From: Nitrospirota bacterium
GTDB lineage: Bacteria > Nitrospirota > Thermodesulfovibrionia > Thermodesulfovibrionales > JdFR-88
Length of the DNA stretch: 64,000 bases
NCBI GenBank assembly: GCA_014874185.1
Contig: JACWAF010000039.1
Span: 1-64,000, forward strand
Direction of reading: 5' to 3'
Below the pieces are notes generated by a model. It was not told the DNA's origin. It saw only the letters and a program-made list of their open reading frames with translations, and ran no database searches. Shown here in pieces: positions 19,382 through 30,620 of the stretch (position 1 is its first letter; each line of letters starts with the position of its first letter). The translations under genes and the position numbers were made by a program.

Positions 19382-19747
19382 TCACTTTACGTAAGTGCCG
19401 ACCAGCTTTACCAGTTCCGCCGTCTGGATGGGTTTTGTAAGATAGGCGTTAGCGCCTATGGACAGGGCCCTGTTCTTGTCCTCTTCGGCCCCTTCCGTGG
19501 TGATTATTATGACCGGGATGTCCTTCATGGCGGGGTTGCCGCGGACGAGGCTCACCAGCTTCAGGCCGTCCATCACGGGCATGTTGATGTCCGCCAGGAT
19601 GAGGTCCACCTTTTGAGAGGAGAGCTTCTTCAGGGCGTCAACGCCGTCCGATGCCTCTATCACCCTGGCATTGGAGACCCTTCGCATGGCAAAGCTTATA
19701 AGCTGTCTCATTGTGGGCGAGTCCTCTACGACAAGTATGTTCGGCAT
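19382..19747 (-). CDS. CheY-like single-domain response regulator
   Basis: A 121-residue receiver domain with acidic pair E8/D9, phosphoacceptor D53 in LILADINMPVMDG, the switch Thr in VIIITTEG and K105 in YLTKPI. No output domain. Last gene of the chemosensory operon, 1 nt after the GAF gene. It may control a motor or act through the GAF or HEAT proteins beside it. Confidence 0.93.
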   Translation of the reverse strand: MPNILVVEDSPTMRQLISFAMRRVSNARVIEASDGVDALKKLSSQKVDLILADINMPVMDGLKLVSLVRGNPAMKDIPVIIITTEGAEEDKNRALSIGANAYLTKPIQTAELVKLVGTYVK

Positions 19748-19748
19748 C

Positions 19749-20567
19749 CTATCTCCTGGGTTTCTCCTTCAAAAGATCAAGGAAGCTCTGGATAGTCGTA
19801 AGTTTTCTCTCGGACTGCGAGTAAAGCCTGGACGAAAATATCGCCGTGGCCGCATGCCCCGCCAGGAGATTGAAAAGCTCGAAGTCCATGTGCGAGAACG
19901 CCTTTTTCTGGGTCAGGAGCGTATATATCGATAGCACCCCGATGACGTGCTCTTTTATTTTCAGCGGTATGCAGACGATCGGGCGGTCGAGGGATTCCTC
20001 CCTCCGGGAGAGGTCATCGGAGAAATAGCTCTCGCCGTCCCTGGCCACCTTGCCTATTATCCCGTCACCCAGCCTGACCCTGGGCAGATCCTCTTCGGCG
20101 ATGCCCTCGGAACCAACGGCCATCAGCTCGTTGCTTTTTTCGTCCAGCAGATAGATGCCGAAGCGCTCGGCCCCGATCAGGTTTATTATTATCTCAAGGA
20201 CTATCCGCAGGACCTCGTTGAAATCGAGCGTCGAATGGAGCTGATAGCTGGCCACGTAGAGGTTGGCAAGATTATTGTTCTCCTCCTCCACCTCGACGTA
20301 CTTGGAGGCGAAATCCTTGTTCTCCTCCTCCACGCGGCTGATGCCCTCCCGGAGAGAGCCAAGCTCATCCTCCAGCTGCTTTACACGCTCTTCGCAGAGG
20401 CGCGAGCGGGCCTCGTCGCCGCTCCTGGAGAGGGCGTCCTCAAGCTCCGCCAGCCTGAAGCGGAGGCGTTCGTTCTCCTTGAGGATCTCCTTGCTGAACT
20501 CCTCGCCTCTCCTGAACACGTTCAGGAACTCCTCGGCCTTTTTGGAGAACATGCTTTCCTTTTCCAT
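19749..20567 (-). CDS. Coiled-coil / GAF-domain protein
   Basis: A 272-residue soluble protein. Residues about 12-105 are a strongly charged heptad-type coiled coil (ENERLRFRLAELEDALSR and following), then a GAF domain (about 112-245) with FGIYLLDEKSNELMAVGSEG and RPIVCIPLKIKEHVIGVLSI. There is no kinase, cyclase or DNA-binding output, so it probably senses a ligand and works by protein contact inside the cluster. The ATG overlaps the last base of cheB. Confidence 0.85.
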   Translation of the reverse strand: MEKESMFSKKAEEFLNVFRRGEEFSKEILKENERLRFRLAELEDALSRSGDEARSRLCEERVKQLEDELGSLREGISRVEEENKDFASKYVEVEEENNNLANLYVASYQLHSTLDFNEVLRIVLEIIINLIGAERFGIYLLDEKSNELMAVGSEGIAEEDLPRVRLGDGIIGKVARDGESYFSDDLSRREESLDRPIVCIPLKIKEHVIGVLSIYTLLTQKKAFSHMDFELFNLLAGHAATAIFSSRLYSQSERKLTTIQSFLDLLKEKPRR

Positions 20568-21616
20568 TATTTCCCGCCCCTCATCAGCCTTATCATCTCG
20601 GAGGCGATCTCGGTCAGCGGCAGCACCTTCCCCGCCGCCCCGGCATTGATCGCTTCCTGCGGCATGCCGAAAACCACGGCCGATTCCTTCGATTCCGCAA
20701 TAGTATAACCGCCTTTCGATTTAATTTCCAGCAGGCCCTTGCGCCCGTCGCTGCCCATCCCGGTGAGCACTATGCCGACCGCCCGGCCTGCGTAGACCTC
20801 GGCCACGGACTCCATCATCAGGTCCACGGAGGGCACATACCTGTCGTCCTCTTCAGCGTCCCTGAGGACGATCCTGTCCTTCGAGTTTTTTCTTTTTACG
20901 GTCATATGCGCCCCGCCGGGGCAGATATAGGCCGTTCCGGGCTCGATCTCGTCGCCGCTGCCGGCCTCCTTTATCCTGATCCTGGAGATCCTGTGCAGCC
21001 TCTCGGCAAGCGGCCCGGTGAAGCCCTTCGGCATATGCTGGCTTATAAGGAGGGCCGCCGGGAAATCCTCCGGCAGCTTCGTGAGTATTATCTGGAGGGC
21101 GGCGGGGCCGCCGGTGGAAGAGCCTATGGCCACCGCGTCAAAGCTGTTTTTTACGGGCCCCGGCTTCCGTTCGGGCTCGGGCGGCTCCAGGAGCTTTATG
21201 TTCCTGCTGAGCACGTCCATATTGAGGCCCCTTATCGCGTTCACCTTCGCGACAAGGTCCCGCTCGATGTTCTTCAGCTCATTGGAGGCCCTCCTGGCGG
21301 GTTTCGCTATGAAGTCCGCGGCCCCCATCTCGAGGGCCTTGAAGACGGTATTCGTGTCCGAATAGGAGCTGACTATTATCACCGGCGTGGGGCTTTGTAT
21401 CATGAGCCACCGGAGGAAGCTGAAGCCGTCCATCTCCGGCATCTCCAAATCCAGCGTCAGGAGGTCGGGTTTCAGACGAAGGGTCTTCGCAATCGCGTCT
21501 ATCCCGTCCGAAGCCGTGCCCGCCACCTCCACCTCCGGCTGGGCCTCCAGCATCCTTTTTATCGTCTGCCTGCTGAAAGCGGAATCATCGACGACAAGGG
21601 CCCTTATCCTTCTCAT
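20567..21616 (-). CDS. cheB: Chemoreceptor glutamate methylesterase/deamidase CheB
   Basis: Removes methyl groups from chemoreceptor glutamates. The 349 residues contain an N-terminal receiver domain (phosphoacceptor D56 in LTLDLEMPEMDG) and a C-terminal esterase with the triad Ser in AIGSSTGGPAAL, His in SQHMPKGF and Asp in GMGSDG. It overlaps cheR by 4 nt. Its phosphodonor kinase, CheA, is not encoded in the window. Confidence 0.95.
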   Translation of the reverse strand: MRRIRALVVDDSAFSRQTIKRMLEAQPEVEVAGTASDGIDAIAKTLRLKPDLLTLDLEMPEMDGFSFLRWLMIQSPTPVIIVSSYSDTNTVFKALEMGAADFIAKPARRASNELKNIERDLVAKVNAIRGLNMDVLSRNIKLLEPPEPERKPGPVKNSFDAVAIGSSTGGPAALQIILTKLPEDFPAALLISQHMPKGFTGPLAERLHRISRIRIKEAGSGDEIEPGTAYICPGGAHMTVKRKNSKDRIVLRDAEEDDRYVPSVDLMMESVAEVYAGRAVGIVLTGMGSDGRKGLLEIKSKGGYTIAESKESAVVFGMPQEAINAGAAGKVLPLTEIASEMIRLMRGGK

Positions 21617-22524
21617 TTCGCCCCGCCCCTCAGCGTGCCCATGGCGCCCTCCCCGGCCTGCAATTGCCTGAGCGAGGGCTTCTGGTAAACAATGTCGTTC
21701 TTCAGGTGCTTCAGAGAGAACGCGGTGGAAATATTCATAAGCGACTCGGCATGTCCGAGGAGCAGGTACCCCTCATCCCTGAGCCTCTCGTGGTAAACGC
21801 CTATCACTTTTTTCCGCGCCTCGATATCGAAATAGATGAGCACGTTCCGGCAGAAGACCACGTCCAGCGTGCCCACGAACCTCACCTTGAAGGCGTCCAG
21901 CAGGTTCAGGCAGCTGAAGCTTACCAGCTTCTTTACGGCATCCTTTATCCTGAACCCGGTCTCCACCTCTTCGAAGTACTTCCTGATATAGTAATCGCTC
22001 GTGCTCCTGAAAGAGTTCTTCTTGTAAATGCCCTTCCGGGCCGTGGCGAGCACGCGCTGGTTTATGTCGCTTCCAAGCACCTCTATCTCCCACCCGCGGG
22101 CGGGCAGGCCCTTCTCCAGCAGCAGCATGGCTATCGTATAAGGCTCCTCGCCCGAGGAGCACCCGGCCGACCAGACGCGGAGCCGCTTTTCGGACTTAGC
22201 GTCCTGCATCTCCCCGATTATCTCTTCGGAAAAGGCGGCCAGCTGGTTCTGTTCCCTGAAGAAATAGGTCTCGTTCACCGTGAGGTTGTCCATCACGGCC
22301 GAAAGCTCCTCCTCCCGTCCTCCGCCGTAAAGGAGGAACCTGTAATAGTCCCGGAAATTGTCAAGCTGGTGTATGCCGAGCCTTCTCGAAAGCCTCCTTT
22401 CAAGGAGATACCGGGAGGCGTCGTCAAAGTAGATCCCGCAATATTCCCTTATGAAGTCCCGCAGCAGCCTGAATTCCTCCTCCGGAAGCTGCACCGGCCT
22501 TTCATTTCCGAAGGTGTTTTCCAT
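21613..22524 (-). CDS. cheR: Chemoreceptor methyltransferase CheR
   Basis: SAM-dependent methylation of receptor glutamates. It has 303 residues: an N-terminal helical domain, the SAM-binding VWSAGCSSGEEPYTIAM and VVFCRNVLIYF. No TPR extension. Neither chemoreceptor in the operon ends in a CheR-tethering pentapeptide, so CheR should act by direct binding. It overlaps the HEAT gene by 1 nt. Confidence 0.95.
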   Translation of the reverse strand: MENTFGNERPVQLPEEEFRLLRDFIREYCGIYFDDASRYLLERRLSRRLGIHQLDNFRDYYRFLLYGGGREEELSAVMDNLTVNETYFFREQNQLAAFSEEIIGEMQDAKSEKRLRVWSAGCSSGEEPYTIAMLLLEKGLPARGWEIEVLGSDINQRVLATARKGIYKKNSFRSTSDYYIRKYFEEVETGFRIKDAVKKLVSFSCLNLLDAFKVRFVGTLDVVFCRNVLIYFDIEARKKVIGVYHERLRDEGYLLLGHAESLMNISTAFSLKHLKNDIVYQKPSLRQLQAGEGAMGTLRGGAK

Positions 22525-24515
22525 CAGGCCCCAAGGACCTTTTCAATGGCCTTGCGGACGACCGCGTCTTCTTCCGAATCGAGAAGTCTTTCAAGCTCTC
22601 CCTTGCCCTCGGGGCAGGAGGCCAGCACATGCACCGCCGCCATCCTGGTGGCCCAGTCCGGGTCCGACAGGAAGGGCGAGACATGCACGCACGCGGCCGC
22701 GAACCCGGAGAGCGCCCTTATCGCGGTACGCCTTATCTCGATGTCATCAGAAGAGAGCATCCCCACGAGGGCTGATTCCGCCTCGATTCCGCCTATCTTC
22801 CCCAGGGCGTTTATGGCCGCGGCTACAACGAACCCGTTCCGGTCCGAAAGGGTTTTCAGGAGGGCGGGGATGTTTTCTTTCAATCCCAGCCTTCCAAGCG
22901 CCCTGACGGCGGCCGCCCGCACCATGTCCTCCGAATCGGCAAGCAGGAGGGACAAGGGCTCGGAGAACTCCGCCTCTGCCGCCGAGCCCATCGAGAGCGC
23001 GGCCCCGGCCCTTATCGAAGGGTCCTCGTCCGTCAGGGCAGGAAGCAGGTGCCTGAAGGCCTCTTTTGTCCCTATCGAGGAAAGCGCGGAGATGGCCGCC
23101 TTCCTGACCTCCGGCAATTCGTCCTTGAGGGCGAACCCCAGCGCCCCGGCCACTTCGGACGGCGCCTTGCCCGCCGGGAAAAGTCTCCCCAAAAGGAGCA
23201 CGGCATTTTTTCTTTTGATCCCATCCTTGCTCTCCGTCCAGCCGATCACTTCCCGCAACTCCAGCCCGCCGCCCAGCTTCTGCAGGGCCTCCACCCCGGC
23301 CTCCTGCACATCCGGGTATTCATCGGCAAGCAGTCCCTTAAGGGACTCAACCGCGGCGGTATCGCCTATGTCCGCCAGCCCGCGCGCGGCAAGTCCGCGC
23401 ACATGGCCGTCCTCGTCTTTCAGGAGCTTGATTAACTCGGCGTAATAAAGCCTGTCCGCGACGACACCGGCCACCTTCGTTATGAACCGCTTCAGATAAG
23501 GGTCCTCGTTCTTCAGAAAAGGCAGCAGCGCCTCTGGCCTTTCCTTTCCGATGAAGACAAGCGCCCTTGCCGCGTCCTCCGCGAACTCGGTCTCCTGCGA
23601 GAGTTCAAACAGGCTCTCAAGGGCCCGCTCGTCTTTCAGGAGCCCCAGCAGGAGTATGGCCGGGATCCTCACGTCCGGTTTGGGGTTCCATGCCTGGTTT
23701 ATCAGGATGAGCACCGCATCGTCCCCCAGGGCCCCTTTCAGGGCGTCAGCTATCCCGGCCTCCGATGCACCCCTGTTGTAAAGCCTCTCTATCGCCTTCA
23801 GGCTTTCCTCCTGGACAACCCTGGAAGTGTCTCTGAGGAAGGGGGCTATTTCCTTCACCGTCTGCCCGTCTCCAAGCACGGCCAGGGCCTTCAGGGCCGG
23901 CTCGCGCAGGGGTTTCCTCTCCCGAAGGGCCCTGACAAGGGCCGGTATGGCCCTCTTGTCCCCTATCCGGCCCAGGGCGTCCGTGGCCGGATAGGCCGTC
24001 CAGATATCGCCGTTTTCCACAATCTCCACCAGGGAGCGCACGACAGAGGCCTCCCCCAGTTTGCCAAGGTGCTCCACGGCCGAAGCCCTTACGTTCTCGT
24101 CTTCGTCGTTAAGGGCCCCGAGCATCACGGAAAGGGCCCTCTTGTCCCTTAGCTCACCCAGTATGTCTATGACGAATTTGCGCACGTCCGCGTTTTCGGT
24201 CTTGAATGCCTCCATCAGGCGGGGCGTGGCCTTCCTGCCCAGGCGGGTAAGCGTCTCTATGGCCGCATTCCTGGCCCCGGCATTGTGCTCCAGGTAAAGG
24301 AGTTCTATAAGCTTAGGGATGTAATCTTCCGGCCGGTAGTCCTCGAACAGTATCTCCTGGGCGGTCTTTCTAACGCGCCAGCTCCGGTCGGCAAGGCCAT
24401 TGACAAGCGGCTCCAGGCACTCGGGCCGGCAATACCCCTTCAGGGCCAGGATTGCGGCCCTCCTTTCGTCCACTCCGCCCGGCCCGAATCCCCCGCCGCG
24501 GGCGTCCTCAGGCAT
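22524..24515 (-). CDS. HEAT-repeat protein of the chemosensory operon
   Basis: The 663-residue protein is almost entirely HEAT/PBS-lyase-like helical repeats of about 31 residues (for example VRKTAQEILFEDYRPEDYIP and VRASAVEHLGKLGEASVVR), roughly twenty in all. No signal peptide, membrane segment or catalytic motif. Such superhelices serve as protein scaffolds. Translational coupling on both sides (8-nt overlap with cheW, 1-nt with cheR) suggests it is a structural or regulatory part of the array. Its partner is unknown. A second HEAT protein is at 43453-45093. Confidence 0.88.
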   Translation of the reverse strand: MPEDARGGGFGPGGVDERRAAILALKGYCRPECLEPLVNGLADRSWRVRKTAQEILFEDYRPEDYIPKLIELLYLEHNAGARNAAIETLTRLGRKATPRLMEAFKTENADVRKFVIDILGELRDKRALSVMLGALNDEDENVRASAVEHLGKLGEASVVRSLVEIVENGDIWTAYPATDALGRIGDKRAIPALVRALRERKPLREPALKALAVLGDGQTVKEIAPFLRDTSRVVQEESLKAIERLYNRGASEAGIADALKGALGDDAVLILINQAWNPKPDVRIPAILLLGLLKDERALESLFELSQETEFAEDAARALVFIGKERPEALLPFLKNEDPYLKRFITKVAGVVADRLYYAELIKLLKDEDGHVRGLAARGLADIGDTAAVESLKGLLADEYPDVQEAGVEALQKLGGGLELREVIGWTESKDGIKRKNAVLLLGRLFPAGKAPSEVAGALGFALKDELPEVRKAAISALSSIGTKEAFRHLLPALTDEDPSIRAGAALSMGSAAEAEFSEPLSLLLADSEDMVRAAAVRALGRLGLKENIPALLKTLSDRNGFVVAAAINALGKIGGIEAESALVGMLSSDDIEIRRTAIRALSGFAAACVHVSPFLSDPDWATRMAAVHVLASCPEGKGELERLLDSEEDAVVRKAIEKVLGA

Positions 24516-24981
24516 TGGTGCCCGCCTGACCCCGCTCTGGCGGGGCCGCCTGCAGGAATATCCTTTCTTCCGAGGAGAGTATCCGTTCCATGTCCAGGAG
24601 TATGGCCACTCCGCCGGTCCTCTTCCCTATCCCGCTAAGGTACTCGGTCTTCATCCCCCTGAAGATGGCAGGGGGCGAAGAGGTCTCGCCGTCAGAGAAC
24701 CCCTTTATCTCCAGGACCTCGTCCACTATGAGCCCTATCCTCTCCCGGCCGCGGCTTTTTACCACTATGATGCGCTCCTTCACGGGGACGGGAGCCAGCC
24801 CAAGCCTTTTGCGCATGTCCACCACTGGCACAACCACCCCCCTCAGGGTCATCACGCCCGCTATATACTCCGGCGTCTCGGGGATGGGGTTCGCCTTATG
24901 TGCCTTCAGTATCTCCACCACCTTGTTTATGTTCAGGCCGAAACACTCCCCGCCCAGGTTAAACAGTATGTATTTTTCCAT
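24508..24981 (-). CDS. cheW: CheW coupling protein
   Basis: A 157-residue single CheW domain ([41 protein letters not shown]), with a short C-terminal tail. It normally bridges chemoreceptors and CheA. It overlaps the upstream chemoreceptor gene by 23 nt and the HEAT gene by 8 nt. Confidence 0.93.
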
Positions 24982-27034
24982 TCGTCCTGTACTTTTCCAT
25001 CTCCCTGGTGAGGGCCTCTATCTCGCCCTGGAGGGTGCCCAGGGAGAGCGCTATCTCCTCGGTTTGCCGCATGGTGCCGATGCCTATCTGCCTTATCTGG
25101 TCCATCGAGCCCACGAATGCGGAATTCATCTCGTCCTGGTCCCCGACGAAGTCCTTTATCTCCTTTATCCGTTCGTTGGCAAGCTCAAGGTTGCCGGTTA
25201 TGTGCCTTGTGCCTTCAGCCTGCTCGCGCGTGCCCTTCTTGGTGGACTCCGCTATCTCCTTCACATCGCCCATCTTCTCCAGCATGTAACTGGAACTCTT
25301 GGACTGTTCCTCCGTTGCGCCCGCCATGGACTCTATGAGCGCCCTTATATTGTCCACCGCAGCGGAGATCTGGGCGAGCCCCTTCACCTGCTCCTCGGTC
25401 GCCTTCTGTGTCGAAAGGGCCATCGCCGCCGCGCCCTGCGAGGCCTCGACGACATTCGCCGTTATCGAGCCGGCCTTGTAAATCTCCTCCTTGTTCTGCT
25501 CCACTTTCCTCATCACATCTTCCGTAGATGTGACCACCTGGGCTATTTCGTTCTGCAGGGTCTTGACTATCTGCGCTATCTCCTTTGTTGAGGCGGCGGT
25601 CCTCTCGCTCAGGGCCCGGATCTCCTCGGCAACCACCGAAAAGCCCTTTCCGTATTCGCCCGCCTGCACGGCTAGGATGGCCGCGTTCAGGGAGAGGAGG
25701 TTGGTCTGCTCGGTAACGTCCTTTATTACCATGAGCATCTTCTCTATGTCCTTGGACTTGGCCTCGAGCCTTGTCACGCCTTCCACGGAGCCGGCAGCCA
25801 CATCGGCCGTCTTCTCCAGTTCGACGATGATGTCCGCGATGACCAGCACCCCCTGTTCAGCCGCTATGGTCTTGACCTTTTCGGCCAGCTGCGTCGATTC
25901 CCTTGCGTTGCGGTCTATCTCCTTTACCGAGGCGCTTATCTCATCCACGGAAGCCGATGTGTCCTCGATGGAGCGGAGCCCCTCCCTGGCGTTCTCGGCG
26001 ATCTTTTTTGCGCTCTGGGAGAACTGCGAGAGGGCCGAGTACGAGTCCTCCACCGCCTGGAAAAGTCTTCCCGTGCTGGATGCTATCTCGTCGGCGGTCG
26101 CCTTGACCTCGAGGAGGCTTGTGACGTTCTCCGTGGAGAATTCCGATAGCTGCTCGGTGCCCCTGGCTATCTTCTTCTGGGCCTCGGCCGCGCTCCTCAG
26201 GGCCGTGGCGATGTCGTCCACCGAGTTCGCCTGCTTTCCCATCGAGCCGCTTACGTTCTTGAATGTGAAATTCATCTGCTTGATCGCCATGCCCACGTTT
26301 GAGGCGGTGGAGTTCAGCCGGCGGACGGACTCGGAGAGGTTCCTGCGCATGAAGTCCAGACCGGCCGCGATGGCGCCTATCTCGTCATCGCCGTATTTCT
26401 CTATCTCCACAGTCAGGTCGCCCTCCGTTATGGAATCCAGTTTCGAATTAAGCTCCTCTATCGGCTTTCCTATCCTCTTCTGGAAAAAGAAGAAAACGGC
26501 GTAGATTATCAGAAGGGATATAAGGACCTGGGCAAACGGGCTTGCGGCCATGAATTTTTTCAGCTTGCTGTTGGCGCGGTCCGAGCTGAAGACCACCTCA
26601 ACGCTTCCCAATTTACTGCCGTCCTGCTCGATCCGCTGTTTATAGGAGAGCACCGGGGGCAGGAGAAAGAGCGGCCGCCCGGCGGAGTCCTCCTGGACGG
26701 CCTTCAGCGTCTTTCCGGCCACGCTGTTGCCGTCCTTGTCCGTGACCTTTACGGAGACGAGATCGGCGTCGGCGGGAAGGGCGTCCACCTGGTTCTGGAC
26801 CCCCTGGTTGTCCATCGCCGCCAGCGCCGGGGCGGATAGACTGGCCAGCAGCCCGGCGGTGTTTTGCATCTTCTCTTTGAGGAAAGAGGCCTCTTCGGAC
26901 CTCAGCCGCTGAAAGGTCCAGAGCCAGAAAGTGCCCTGCCCCAGAAAAAATATCGAAAAGACAATCAGGATAAAATTGCGGGCGAGGGTCTTTCTGGTCA
27001 CTGCCCCGCCACCCCCGTCTTCGCCTGAACGCAT
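24959..27034 (-). CDS. Methyl-accepting chemotaxis protein
   Basis: A 691-residue class I receptor: TM1 at about 20-43, a periplasmic sensor of about 120 residues ([10 protein letters not shown]-like stretch [19 protein letters not shown]/Cache-like), TM2 at about 166-185, HAMP and a long methyl-accepting coiled coil with hairpin tip [21 protein letters not shown]. No CheR-binding pentapeptide at the C-terminus. The ligand cannot be predicted. It lies 20 nt downstream of the receptor-PhnD fusion gene. Confidence 0.92.
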
Positions 27035-27054: not shown

Positions 27055-29901
27055 TCAGATCATCCCCAATTTGCTCATCATGAGCCTTATTCCGTTATAG
27101 TCCTCATCCTGCGCCTCCATGAAGCCGGTGCAGGCCGGGTCTATGCCCCTCAGTATGTCCTGCCCCTCGATGCCCGATTTTCCAAGCTCCAGAAGGGCGC
27201 CCTTCAGCCTGACGGCAAGCTCCTCGTCCCTTCCGGCGGTGCATATGTTGAACTCGGGGACCTCCGGCGAGACCTTTACGATCACAAGCCCCTGGTCCTT
27301 GTACTTGTATGCCGTCGACTCCATAAGGCCGCCCGCGTCGAACTCCCTCTTCAGGACGGCCCTGGCCACGTCGTCATGGTGGCCCAGGTAATTGTGATAC
27401 GAGAGGTCCTTGAGGTCTATGCCCTCTTCAAAGAGCATGGCCCTCGGCACCACGTGGCTGGAAGTGGAGTTCTCGTCGCCAAAGGCGAACGTCCTGCCTT
27501 TTATGTCCTTGAGCGCATTTATCTTCGCGTCCTGCCTGGCGATTATGACCGAATGGTGGAAGGGCCTTCCGTCCCGCAGGGCCTTTACGAGCACCCGCGC
27601 ATTATAAAGCTTATGGGCCTGGATATAGGTGGAAGGGGTCATATAGCAGAACTCGGTCACCCCTTCCCCAAGCTCTTTCACGGCGGACTGGAAATTGACC
27701 GCGATCTTGATGTCCACCCTTCTCCCCAGCTTCCTGGAAAGGTACCCGGCAAGCGGCCTGAACCTCTTGAACATCACCGCCGGGGATTCCAGGGGCACTA
27801 TGCCGAACCTCAGCACGCCCGCCCTGGAGAGGTCCGGCAGGCTGAACCTTTCCATTTCCATGTTCATAAGCTCGGCATCTTTCACCAGCCCCTTCATCGA
27901 GCGGTTTATCCCGAAGGAGAGGTCCCTGCTCTTTTCGGGGATCTCCTTGATCTTCTCTATCGCGTTCCATATCCGGCCGGCATCTGCCTTCTGCTCGTTC
28001 ATGGCCTTGGAGATATGCTGGCTTTTTTCGGAGATGAAATCGACGGACTGGGCTATTTGCCGGCTCGACTCGGCCTGCTGCCCGGTGGTTATCTTCATCT
28101 GCACCGAGGCGTCCTTCATCCTCTCGGCCGCGTTTATTATAAGCGCTATCCCCTTTGACTGCTCCAGGGTGGCCCCGGCCATTTTTTCGACCAGGAACCG
28201 GACCTTCTCAACGGAATCCGAGACAAGCTTTGCGGCCTTTACCTGCTCCGCGGTAGCGCGCTCTATCGAGGAGGAAACCTCGGAGGACGTTTTTGCGCTC
28301 TCCAGGATCTTCCTGAAAGACCTCCCGGCCTCTTCGGTAAGGATTATGCCCTCCTTCACGGCCTGCATGCCGCCCTTCATTGCCTCGGCCGCGCTCTTGA
28401 CCTCGAGGCGCACGGAATCTATGAGGGCCGCTATCTCCTGGGTGGAAAAGCCCGTCCTCTCCGCAAGGCTCTTTATCTCATCGGCCACAACGGAGAAGCC
28501 CTTCCCCTTCTCGCCCGCCTGCGAGGCCAGGATGGCCGCGTTCAGGGCCAGGAGCGTTGTCTGCTCGGTAATCTCGTCTATCACCGTGAGAATCTTGCCG
28601 ATCTCCTCCGAGCGCCCCCCCAGTTTTCTTATGACCTCGCCGGTCCTCTCGACCGAGTCTTTTATCTTGTCCATGCCGCTCTTGGTCCTGTCGATCGCGG
28701 TTACGCCGAGGGTGGCCGCTTCCGAGGCGACGCGCCCTGAGATCCTGGCCGACTCCTTCGCGCGCGATTCCACTTCCTTGATGGAATTGATTATCTTCTC
28801 GATGGCCGGCAGGGTGATATCCGAGACATCCGCAAGCTCTCCGGCGCCCGCGGCAACTTCCTTCAGCATGGCCGAAAGCTCCTCAATTGAAAAGCCCGTC
28901 GATTCGACAGTGGACGAGAGCTCGGTCGCCATGGACGAAAGGCTCTCTATGCTTATGGCGATCTCCTCCGTGGAGGCCGCGGTCTCCTCGACCGACGCGG
29001 CGAGGCCCTCCACGCTTTCCGCAACCTCGGCTATGCTGGCGTTCATCTCCTCGACGGAAGAGGAGATGTTCACTATGGACTCCGCCTCCACCCGGGTAAA
29101 CCCGGTGAGCTTGCCGGAATCCTTCTCCACCTTGTCCGTAACCTCGTTTATCCGCCCGGATATCTCCTTTACCCGCTGCAGGATCCCGCCGATAGAATAA
29201 AGCGATTCACGGAGCGAATTCCGCAACCTGCCGATCTCGTCCTTGGAATCATATCCCGTCCTGAATGAGAGTTCCCCCTCCGCCATCTTGCCGGTCTGTA
29301 TCTCCAGGTCCTTTACCGGGGCTATCACGAACCTGTTCAGGATGAACCAGAAGGCAAGCCCCATGAAGATTGTGCCGAAGAGCCCGCCGCCCCCTATGAT
29401 GTAGAGGAGCTGGCTGGAGACCCCCTCCTCGTCTTTCAGGCTCGCGGTCAGTTTAACCGCCCCGAGCAGCGTTTTGTCCGGATGGCACCCAGCGCACGCC
29501 TTCCTGGCCTCAATGGGCCTGTAAAGGATGAGGTTGCCGTCTTTTTTCAGGAAGACGGGCGAACCCTTTTCGGAAAGGGTGCGGAGCATCCCGGCCTCGG
29601 TGGCCTGGGTGCCGGGGGTAAAGGCGTTTTTGCCCTCCGGGTTGAATACCTCTATGGACTCTATCCCGTTCACGCTCCCATATCCGGGCAGGAGTAGGGA
29701 GACGGCATCCGGATTGTTGCTTAGCATCGCCTTTTCAATGCCGGTCTGGACAAGTTCACCGAGGGTCTGAAGCTTTCCCTCCGCAAGGCTGTCGATGTCC
29801 TTTTTTTCCTTTTCAGCCACTATGAAGGCCGAAAGCAGGATGCCTATCACCAGCAGGACAAGGCCCGACCCCAGGATCCTGAACTCGAGGTTGTTCTTCA
29901 A
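27055..29901 (-). CDS. Chemoreceptor fusion: CxxCH-bearing sensor, HAMP, signalling domain and C-terminal PhnD-like binding domain
   Basis: A 948-residue protein. TM1 is at about 9-28, followed by a periplasmic domain of about 135 residues with CAGCH at 136-140 (a c-type haem attachment motif), TM2 at about 166-188, HAMP (about 189-242) and an MCP signalling region with tip [21 protein letters not shown] near 446-466. After residue 690 comes a 255-residue substrate-binding domain of the phosphonate/phosphite-transporter PhnD type ([45 protein letters not shown]). No third membrane segment or signal precedes it, so it is predicted to be cytoplasmic, although PhnD proteins normally bind ligand in the periplasm. 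It overlaps the upstream CheW gene by 4 nt. Domain assignment is firm; function is inferred. Confidence 0.88.
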
Positions 29902-30620
29902 AAAGCCTCCTTGAAGAAGTTCAATATCTCCGCGGTGCGTATGACCGATATGAACCTGCCCCCGCGGAGAGTTATTCCGTCTATATATTTCAGTTCGTTC
30001 CCGGAGAGATGAGACGGGGCCTCGCGGACTTCTTCCAGCGGGACGCGCAGGACCTCAAGCACCCTGTCCACAAGCACCCCGACCGACCCTTTCGGGCCCC
30101 TCAGGATTATTATGCGTTCCTTGCCGGCGGGCGCGGATTCCGGCATGCAAAACCTTCTTTTCAGGTCAATAACGGGGATGATCTCTCCGCGCAGCGAGCT
30201 TACCCCAAGGAGAACCGGGTCCGTACGGGGCACGCCTGTCGTCCTCATGGGTTTAATGATCTCGCTTGTGTCGGGCACCCTGAAGGCGAAGTCCTCGCTT
30301 GCCAGCCTGAAGACCAGCAGTTCGATAAGCTCTTCAGTCTTCCGCTCCTCGCTCCAGGAATCCCCGGAGTCTTCCTCGCCGGCTGTTCCCGGCTCCACCG
30401 GAGGGGGGGCCGGAACGGCGGGCGCCTCTTCCCGGATTACTCCGGCTGCGGGCTGGACACCCACTGAGGGGATCTGCGCCTGGCTGGCGGAAATACCCGT
30501 CTCCGCCGGGGTGAGTTCGGCATCCTGGGCCGGCACAGGGCCGGGCCCGCCCTGCCCTGAACCCTCAGCTTCCTTTTCCCTGGACTCTTTTAATTTCTTC
30601 CTTATCCTGGCCAGGTCCAT
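29898..30620 (-). CDS. CheW-domain protein with disordered N-terminal extension
   Basis: A 240-residue protein. The first 90 residues are rich in Pro, Ala, Glu and Gly with no fold visible. A CheW domain follows (about 95-237: [38 protein letters not shown]). First gene of the chemosensory operon. The extension may act as a flexible tether to a receptor or a missing kinase. A divergent gap of 114 nt separates it from argS. Confidence 0.88.

Follow-up and report, generated by a model that had tools for sequence, protein, structure and literature searches.

Can a single chemoreceptor read one chemical signal outside the cell and another inside it? This question is raised by a gene on the minus strand of the window, the whole stretch of 64,000 nucleotides from a Nitrospirota bacterium that was analysed here, whose product joins a periplasmic domain with a haem c attachment motif to a C-terminal domain of the PhnD type. 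The receptor is real and conserved, and its new element is the cytoplasmic PhnD-like domain. We conclude that this one protein probably integrates two chemical signals, the first from outside the cell and the second from within it.

Receptor architecture

The domain order proposed in the initial annotation, namely TM1, a periplasmic domain with CAGCH, TM2, HAMP, a signalling hairpin and a PhnD-type domain, was confirmed by Pfam matches and hydropathy (Table 1, in which one has been added to the Pfam coordinates on the receptor, as the query lacked the first codon). The receptor is a member of the methyl-accepting chemotaxis proteins (MCPs), as evidenced by its HAMP and MCPsignal domains, its Che partners and a conserved hairpin tip of 24 residues starting at residue 446. 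The arms flanking the tip are nearly matched in length, at about 224 and 234 residues, which places the exit of the PhnD-like domain close to HAMP, at the end of the hairpin nearest the membrane. In MCP2, the second receptor of the operon, the arms are comparably long, and the protein stops at the point where the first receptor continues into its PhnD domain. At its start, the receptor gene shares four bases with the cheW gene ahead of it. A frameshifted or chimeric reading frame was considered and dropped, since more than 80 relatives have the same architecture.

Table 1. Features of the predicted dual-sensor receptor, its operon and its probable CheA partner
Feature	Position	Strand	Evidence or remark
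Dual-sensor MCP CDS (predicted), 948 aa, TTG start	27055..29901	minus	AAGGAGG just upstream of start
TM1, residues 9-27	29821..29877	minus	KD19 = 2.68
Periplasmic Cache-type domain, putative haem c, residues about 31-165	29407..29811	minus	Profile and AF2/Foldseek homology
Met59, predicted second axial haem ligand	29725..29727	minus	Invariant in 28/28; aligns with GSU0935 Met60
CAGCH haem c attachment motif, residues 136-140	29482..29496	minus	His140 is the predicted proximal ligand
TM2, residues about 166-196	29332..29406 (residues 166-190)	minus	KD19 peak 1.86 at 178-196; no D/E in 166-190
HAMP domain, residues 188-231	29209..29340	minus	PF00672, 26.5 bits vs cut-off 25
MCP signalling domain match, residues 389-568	28198..28737	minus	PF00015, E=3.7e-39
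PhnD-like (Phosphonate-bd) domain, residues 699-935	27097..27807	minus	PF12974, E=2e-58
STSSH, residues 812-816, predicted oxyanion-binding loop	27454..27468	minus	Equals PtxB S130-T131-S132
His842, PtxB His160 equivalent	27376..27378	minus	Conserved in 71/73
Phe884, at PtxB capping Tyr208 position	27250..27252	minus	F in 72/73
CheW1	29898..30620	minus	PF01584; overlaps receptor start; conserved neighbour
MCP2, second receptor, CHASE8-like periplasmic domain	24959..27034	minus	
CheW2	24508..24981	minus	
HEAT-repeat protein, 663 aa	22524..24515	minus	
CheR methyltransferase	21613..22524	minus	
CheB methylesterase	20567..21616	minus	
GAF-domain protein	19749..20567	minus	
CheY-like receiver protein	19382..19747	minus	
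CheA cluster on contig C39, DUF4388-CheY-CheA-AAA	L142 5665-9947		

Identity and likely ligand of the C-terminal domain

A PhnD-type domain had been proposed to start at about residue 695, and this assignment was borne out by structure prediction, Foldseek and two family profiles. The C-terminal domain scored 198 bits with PF12974 (cut-off 27) and 136.7 bits with TIGR01098 (cut-off 112.05), and its sequence matched that of PtxB (5o2j) with an E value of 5e-28. The predicted structure is a complete two-lobed fold with a mean pLDDT of 90, rising to about 95 over the domain itself, and its nearest solved structures in Foldseek were PtxB (1.8e-27) and ArrX (1.8e-26). The score with the PhnD equivalog TIGR03431 fell far under its cut-off (112.7 vs 261.1 bits). 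Features of a transport-type protein were also absent: there is no hydrophobic segment ahead of the domain, the operon is chemosensory, and PhnE stayed under cut-off in the host genome. Judged by its sequence, the domain is a member of the PF12974 family that is distinct from PhnD, PtxB and the transport-type binding proteins.

Three further loci with PF12974 proteins were examined in the host genome (L059 4471-9085 on C14, L060 3962-8459 on C2 and L061 3664-6089 on C17), and two of these proteins carry tandem PF12974 domains in one chain. Each of these genes adjoins a histidine kinase gene, and two also adjoin a gene for a sigma-54-type response regulator, with no transporter evident beside any of the three. 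Their products resemble two-component-system sensors for oxyanions. The kinase neighbours, together with PhnE being under cut-off, suggest that the PhnD family serves sensing in this host, as do AioX and ArrX.

To examine the pocket, conservation was scored over 74 unique fusions with PtxB as the reference for positions (PMC5700983). The predicted oxyanion-binding loop is well kept (S812 in 73/73, T813 in 66/73 and S814 in 67/73), and at S812, S814, H842, D855, E861 and F884 conservation reaches about 92-100% across the 74 sequences, whose identity falls as low as about 40%. The positions that differ from PtxB are the cap, where Tyr208 is replaced by Phe884, and the D22 position, where Leu704 has a Leu counterpart in 67/74 fusions. 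In PtxB, the Y208F substitution raises the Kd for phosphite from 0.17 to 295 uM, about three orders of magnitude, and that for methylphosphonate to over 60 mM (PMC5700983).

These observations bear on the strongest alternative to an oxyanion sensor of another kind, namely that the C-terminal domain senses phosphite, phosphonate or phosphate and reports the phosphorus status of the cell. PtxB proteins are indeed nearest to it among solved sequences and folds, and the STS and His positions that bind phosphate oxygens are retained, but both the cap Tyr and D22 have been replaced in most fusions, and the former exchange alone strongly lowers phosphite affinity in PtxB. The low score with the PhnD equivalog, and the neighbouring ArrX/AioX branch, which binds arsenic oxyanions and signals, further weaken a phosphorus sensor, which we regard as unlikely; a PtxB-type phosphite sensor was dropped outright because of the changed cap residues. 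As the cap Tyr is replaced by Phe in nearly all fusions, a phosphorus ligand is not supported and an oxyanion is likelier. The ligand is most likely an oxyanion or a phosphorylated compound. The initial annotation had suggested an inside phosphorus or anion signal: the anion part is supported as a prediction by the retained STS-His oxyanion cradle, whereas the phosphorus part found no support in view of Phe884 and Leu704, the equivalog score and the kinase neighbours of the other family members.

Less probable still is that the domain has given up binding a small ligand and instead plays a structural part or docks a partner, such as the HEAT-repeat protein or the second receptor. In favour of this, the domain has been lost in some relatives whose operon persists, but a surface role would not need the high conservation seen in the pocket.

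Membrane topology

The inner position of the PhnD-like domain depends on the number of membrane segments. No third transmembrane segment was found in the receptor by hydropathy, the best 19-residue window past residue 200 reaching 1.03, and a membrane-like segment past residue 300 is likewise absent from 72 of the 74 unique fusions. The two exceptions are an open reading frame whose upstream end lies several hundred residues ahead of the aligned start, and a marginal segment within the PhnD fold. With only two membrane segments, the C-terminal domain is cytoplasmic, as had been expected on the grounds that no third segment precedes it.

Well-studied relatives in PF12974 are extracytoplasmic, and this family background would favour a periplasmic PhnD domain working as an ordinary binding protein by way of an overlooked membrane segment or translation as a product of its own, but we consider that extremely improbable given a single open frame with no hydrophobic segment past residue 200, the same result in 72/74 homologues, and more than 80 relatives with this architecture, almost always encoded without a break in the frame. 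Substrate-binding proteins are described as extracytosolic (PMC9602780).

The putative periplasmic haem c sensor

High levels of conservation were found around the haem motif of the outer domain. None of the 29 closest homologues from other genomes departs from the CXXCH motif, and its chance occurrence was dropped as an explanation, as only 0.00025 such motifs are expected in a protein of the receptor's composition. The closest-homologue alignment contains seven invariant columns (M59, G90, F94, C136, C139, H140 and G147 in receptor numbering), and the profile built from it matches the Geobacter sensors GSU0582 (3b47) and GSU0935 (3b42) with E values of 1.3e-13 and 2e-10, respectively. PF21563 matches 28/28 homologues (best 5.8e-14), with 19.2 bits against a cut-off of 27 for the window's own domain. 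PF11845 gave a weak match in 18/28 homologues and none in the window's own domain.

The AF2 model of the periplasmic domain (pLDDT 81) has a Cache fold with strands at 54-60, 90-94, 97-105 and 119-128 and a short helix with CXXCH lying between strands; the motif is inserted between strands 3 and 4 of the fold, as in sCache_heme. The best PDB match of this model in Foldseek was 3b42 (6e-7), and Tll0287 (4.4e-4) and WalK were matched too. Met59, at profile position 33, pairs with position 26 of the 3b42 chain, which corresponds to Met60 because the published Cys140 is chain position 106. In GSU0935, Met60 is a switchable axial ligand that is displaced by NO, CO and oxidation (PMC8396549).

The host genome encodes three Cytochrom_C_asm proteins. 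Combined with the invariant CXXCH and Met59 and the homology to GSU0582 and GSU0935, this makes covalent attachment of haem c to the periplasmic domain likely. By homology, the outer haem half is a known type of sensor, and the receptor probably belongs among the haem c Cache sensors. The outside haem-linked signal of the initial annotation is therefore supported, both by this homology and by a conserved Met that aligns with an axial ligand.

Signalling partners and distribution

The order CheW1, MCP::PhnD, MCP2, CheW2, HEAT-repeat protein and CheR is kept in most of about 38 relatives, down to 40% identity. MCP2 is absent from the operon in several of them (e.g., L068, L079 and L081). Across the phylum, the HEAT-repeat protein is consistently part of this chemosensory operon. 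In the window, CheR is followed by CheB, a GAF-domain protein and a CheY-like receiver protein. Within the window, no CheA is encoded in the receptor's operon. The host genome has two, one with its own MCP and CheR and the other on contig C39 (Table 1). In 65 of 79 loci, an orthologue of the latter is encoded no more than 10 kb away from the MCP::PhnD gene, which makes the C39 CheA the probable signalling partner of the receptor.

A full-length search identified the HAMP-MCP-PhnD architecture in at least 86 of 396 sampled genomes of the phylum, among the matches listed. A scan of one genome per species returned 51 loci, all with titles of Nitrospirota, Nitrospirae, Thermodesulfovibrionales or similar except for two 'Bacterium BMS3Bbin' bins; both scan patterns are family-specific, so divergent fusions may exist in other phyla. 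The earlier view that the arrangement is unusual thus holds across bacteria as far as they could be searched, but not within Nitrospirota, where it is common. Among the matches listed from plasmids there was no fusion, only ordinary PhnD-type binding proteins; the best-covering one, from Methylorubrum H1, was rejected as a plain secreted PtxB-like protein encoded between transporter genes. Our literature search, which was incomplete, found no description of the haem-MCP-PhnD architecture, although domain databases may hold one; a Corallococcus receptor that came up (PMC6194562) is a PAS-globin MCP and a different system.

Some genomes have a divergent second haem-MCP-PhnD copy outside the operon (L057 7852-10713 and L084 8124-11057), in which the cradle is partly altered, with SATG in place of STSS.

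A probable receptor with two inputs

Comparison of relatives encoded in the same operon revealed that the two sensory domains occur separately. One relative has the haem motif without PhnD (L049), four have PhnD and two membrane segments with almost no periplasmic loop between them (L053-L056), and three have neither (L050-L052). In addition, the same cytoplasmic half is joined to other periplasmic domains, or to none that aligns, in relatives at a greater distance (L040-L048 and one member of the L039 pair). The outer and inner domains have therefore been lost independently, which fits two separable inputs to one output. We consider it likely that the protein is a transmembrane chemoreceptor with two independent inputs, an outer haem and an inner oxyanion, and an output through CheA.

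In this model, the outer Cache-type domain should hold one covalent haem c that is bound by His140 and, switchably, by Met59. A redox change, or NO or CO, would displace Met59 and cause TM2 and HAMP to shift, as proposed for GSU0582 and GSU0935, while the PhnD-like domain at the base of the hairpin would close in clam fashion on a cytoplasmic oxyanion and bias the same helix bundle. Both inputs would tune the activity of the CheA orthologue, whose gene neighbours that of the receptor in most relatives and sits on a different contig in the host, with adaptation provided by CheR and CheB. In the host, the output would more probably be type IV pilus activity than flagellar rotation.

Neither flagellin nor FlhA was found in the host genome, which is rated 100% complete, and three PilT-family proteins scored above cut-off. 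Pilus control is for that reason the likelier output and probably the one that the receptor serves in this host. The host has two CheA proteins and several receptors despite lacking flagellin and FlhA. FlhA is present in 26 of 86 carriers of the fusion versus 211 of 310 non-carriers, counts that are uncorrected for shared ancestry, and a flagellar output is possible in those 26 carriers.

A bolder reading, which we advance tentatively, is that a substrate-binding-protein fold, which ordinarily captures oxyanions outside the membrane, has been relocated to the cytoplasmic base of a chemoreceptor, where its ligand is an oxyanion of the cell interior, perhaps an intermediate of respiration or assimilation, and where it, joined with a periplasmic haem sensor of redox state or NO, steers pilus motility in the largely non-flagellated Nitrospirota. 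If this is true, one receptor weighs an outer signal of the electron-acceptor type against an inner anion signal, a well-studied extracellular binding fold has been put to cytoplasmic use, and there is a molecular handle on how uncultured Nitrospirota of groundwater and sediment choose where to settle. The relatives with each input alone, both or neither represent a natural test bed for the integration of two inputs by one hairpin.

Comparison with known systems

The closest counterparts of the outer half are GSU0582 and GSU0935 of Geobacter sulfurreducens (3B47 and 3B42, PF21563), which share with the receptor a CXXCH near the C-terminal side of the periplasmic domain, a Met at the aligned position of the axial ligand, HAMP and the hairpin. 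As described, they stop after the MCP domain, with no binding domain in the cytoplasm (PMC8396549); Pfam places the GSU0582/GSU0935 sensor under class 40H, whereas the arms here are about 224-234 residues long. A preprint (PMC12889525) includes both in the sCache_heme family (DUF3365/Tll0287, PF11845), which it reports to be enriched in Nitrospirota and to have signalling-linked members that behave like NO sensors. The likeness to sCache_heme lies in the Cache fold with its CXXCH insert; the preprint makes no mention of PhnD or phosphonate domains.

For the inner half, PtxB, PhnD and HtxB have the fold and the oxyanion cradle in common with the C-terminal domain, but they are secreted parts of transporters, whereas the domain here is cytoplasmic, fused to a receptor and changed in its cap residues. 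The arsenic sensors ArrX and AioX likewise use a PhnD-family fold for signalling rather than transport, although they are periplasmic and work with a separate histidine kinase, in contrast to an intracellular domain fused to an MCP. The overall layout of a periplasmic region, HAMP, MCP and a cytoplasmic C-terminal sensor is that of DcrH from Desulfovibrio vulgaris (PMC9388753), in which the C-terminal sensor is a hemerythrin with an oxygen-binding di-iron site; in the Nitrospirota receptor the same place is taken, in lieu of a hemerythrin, by a substrate-binding-protein fold.
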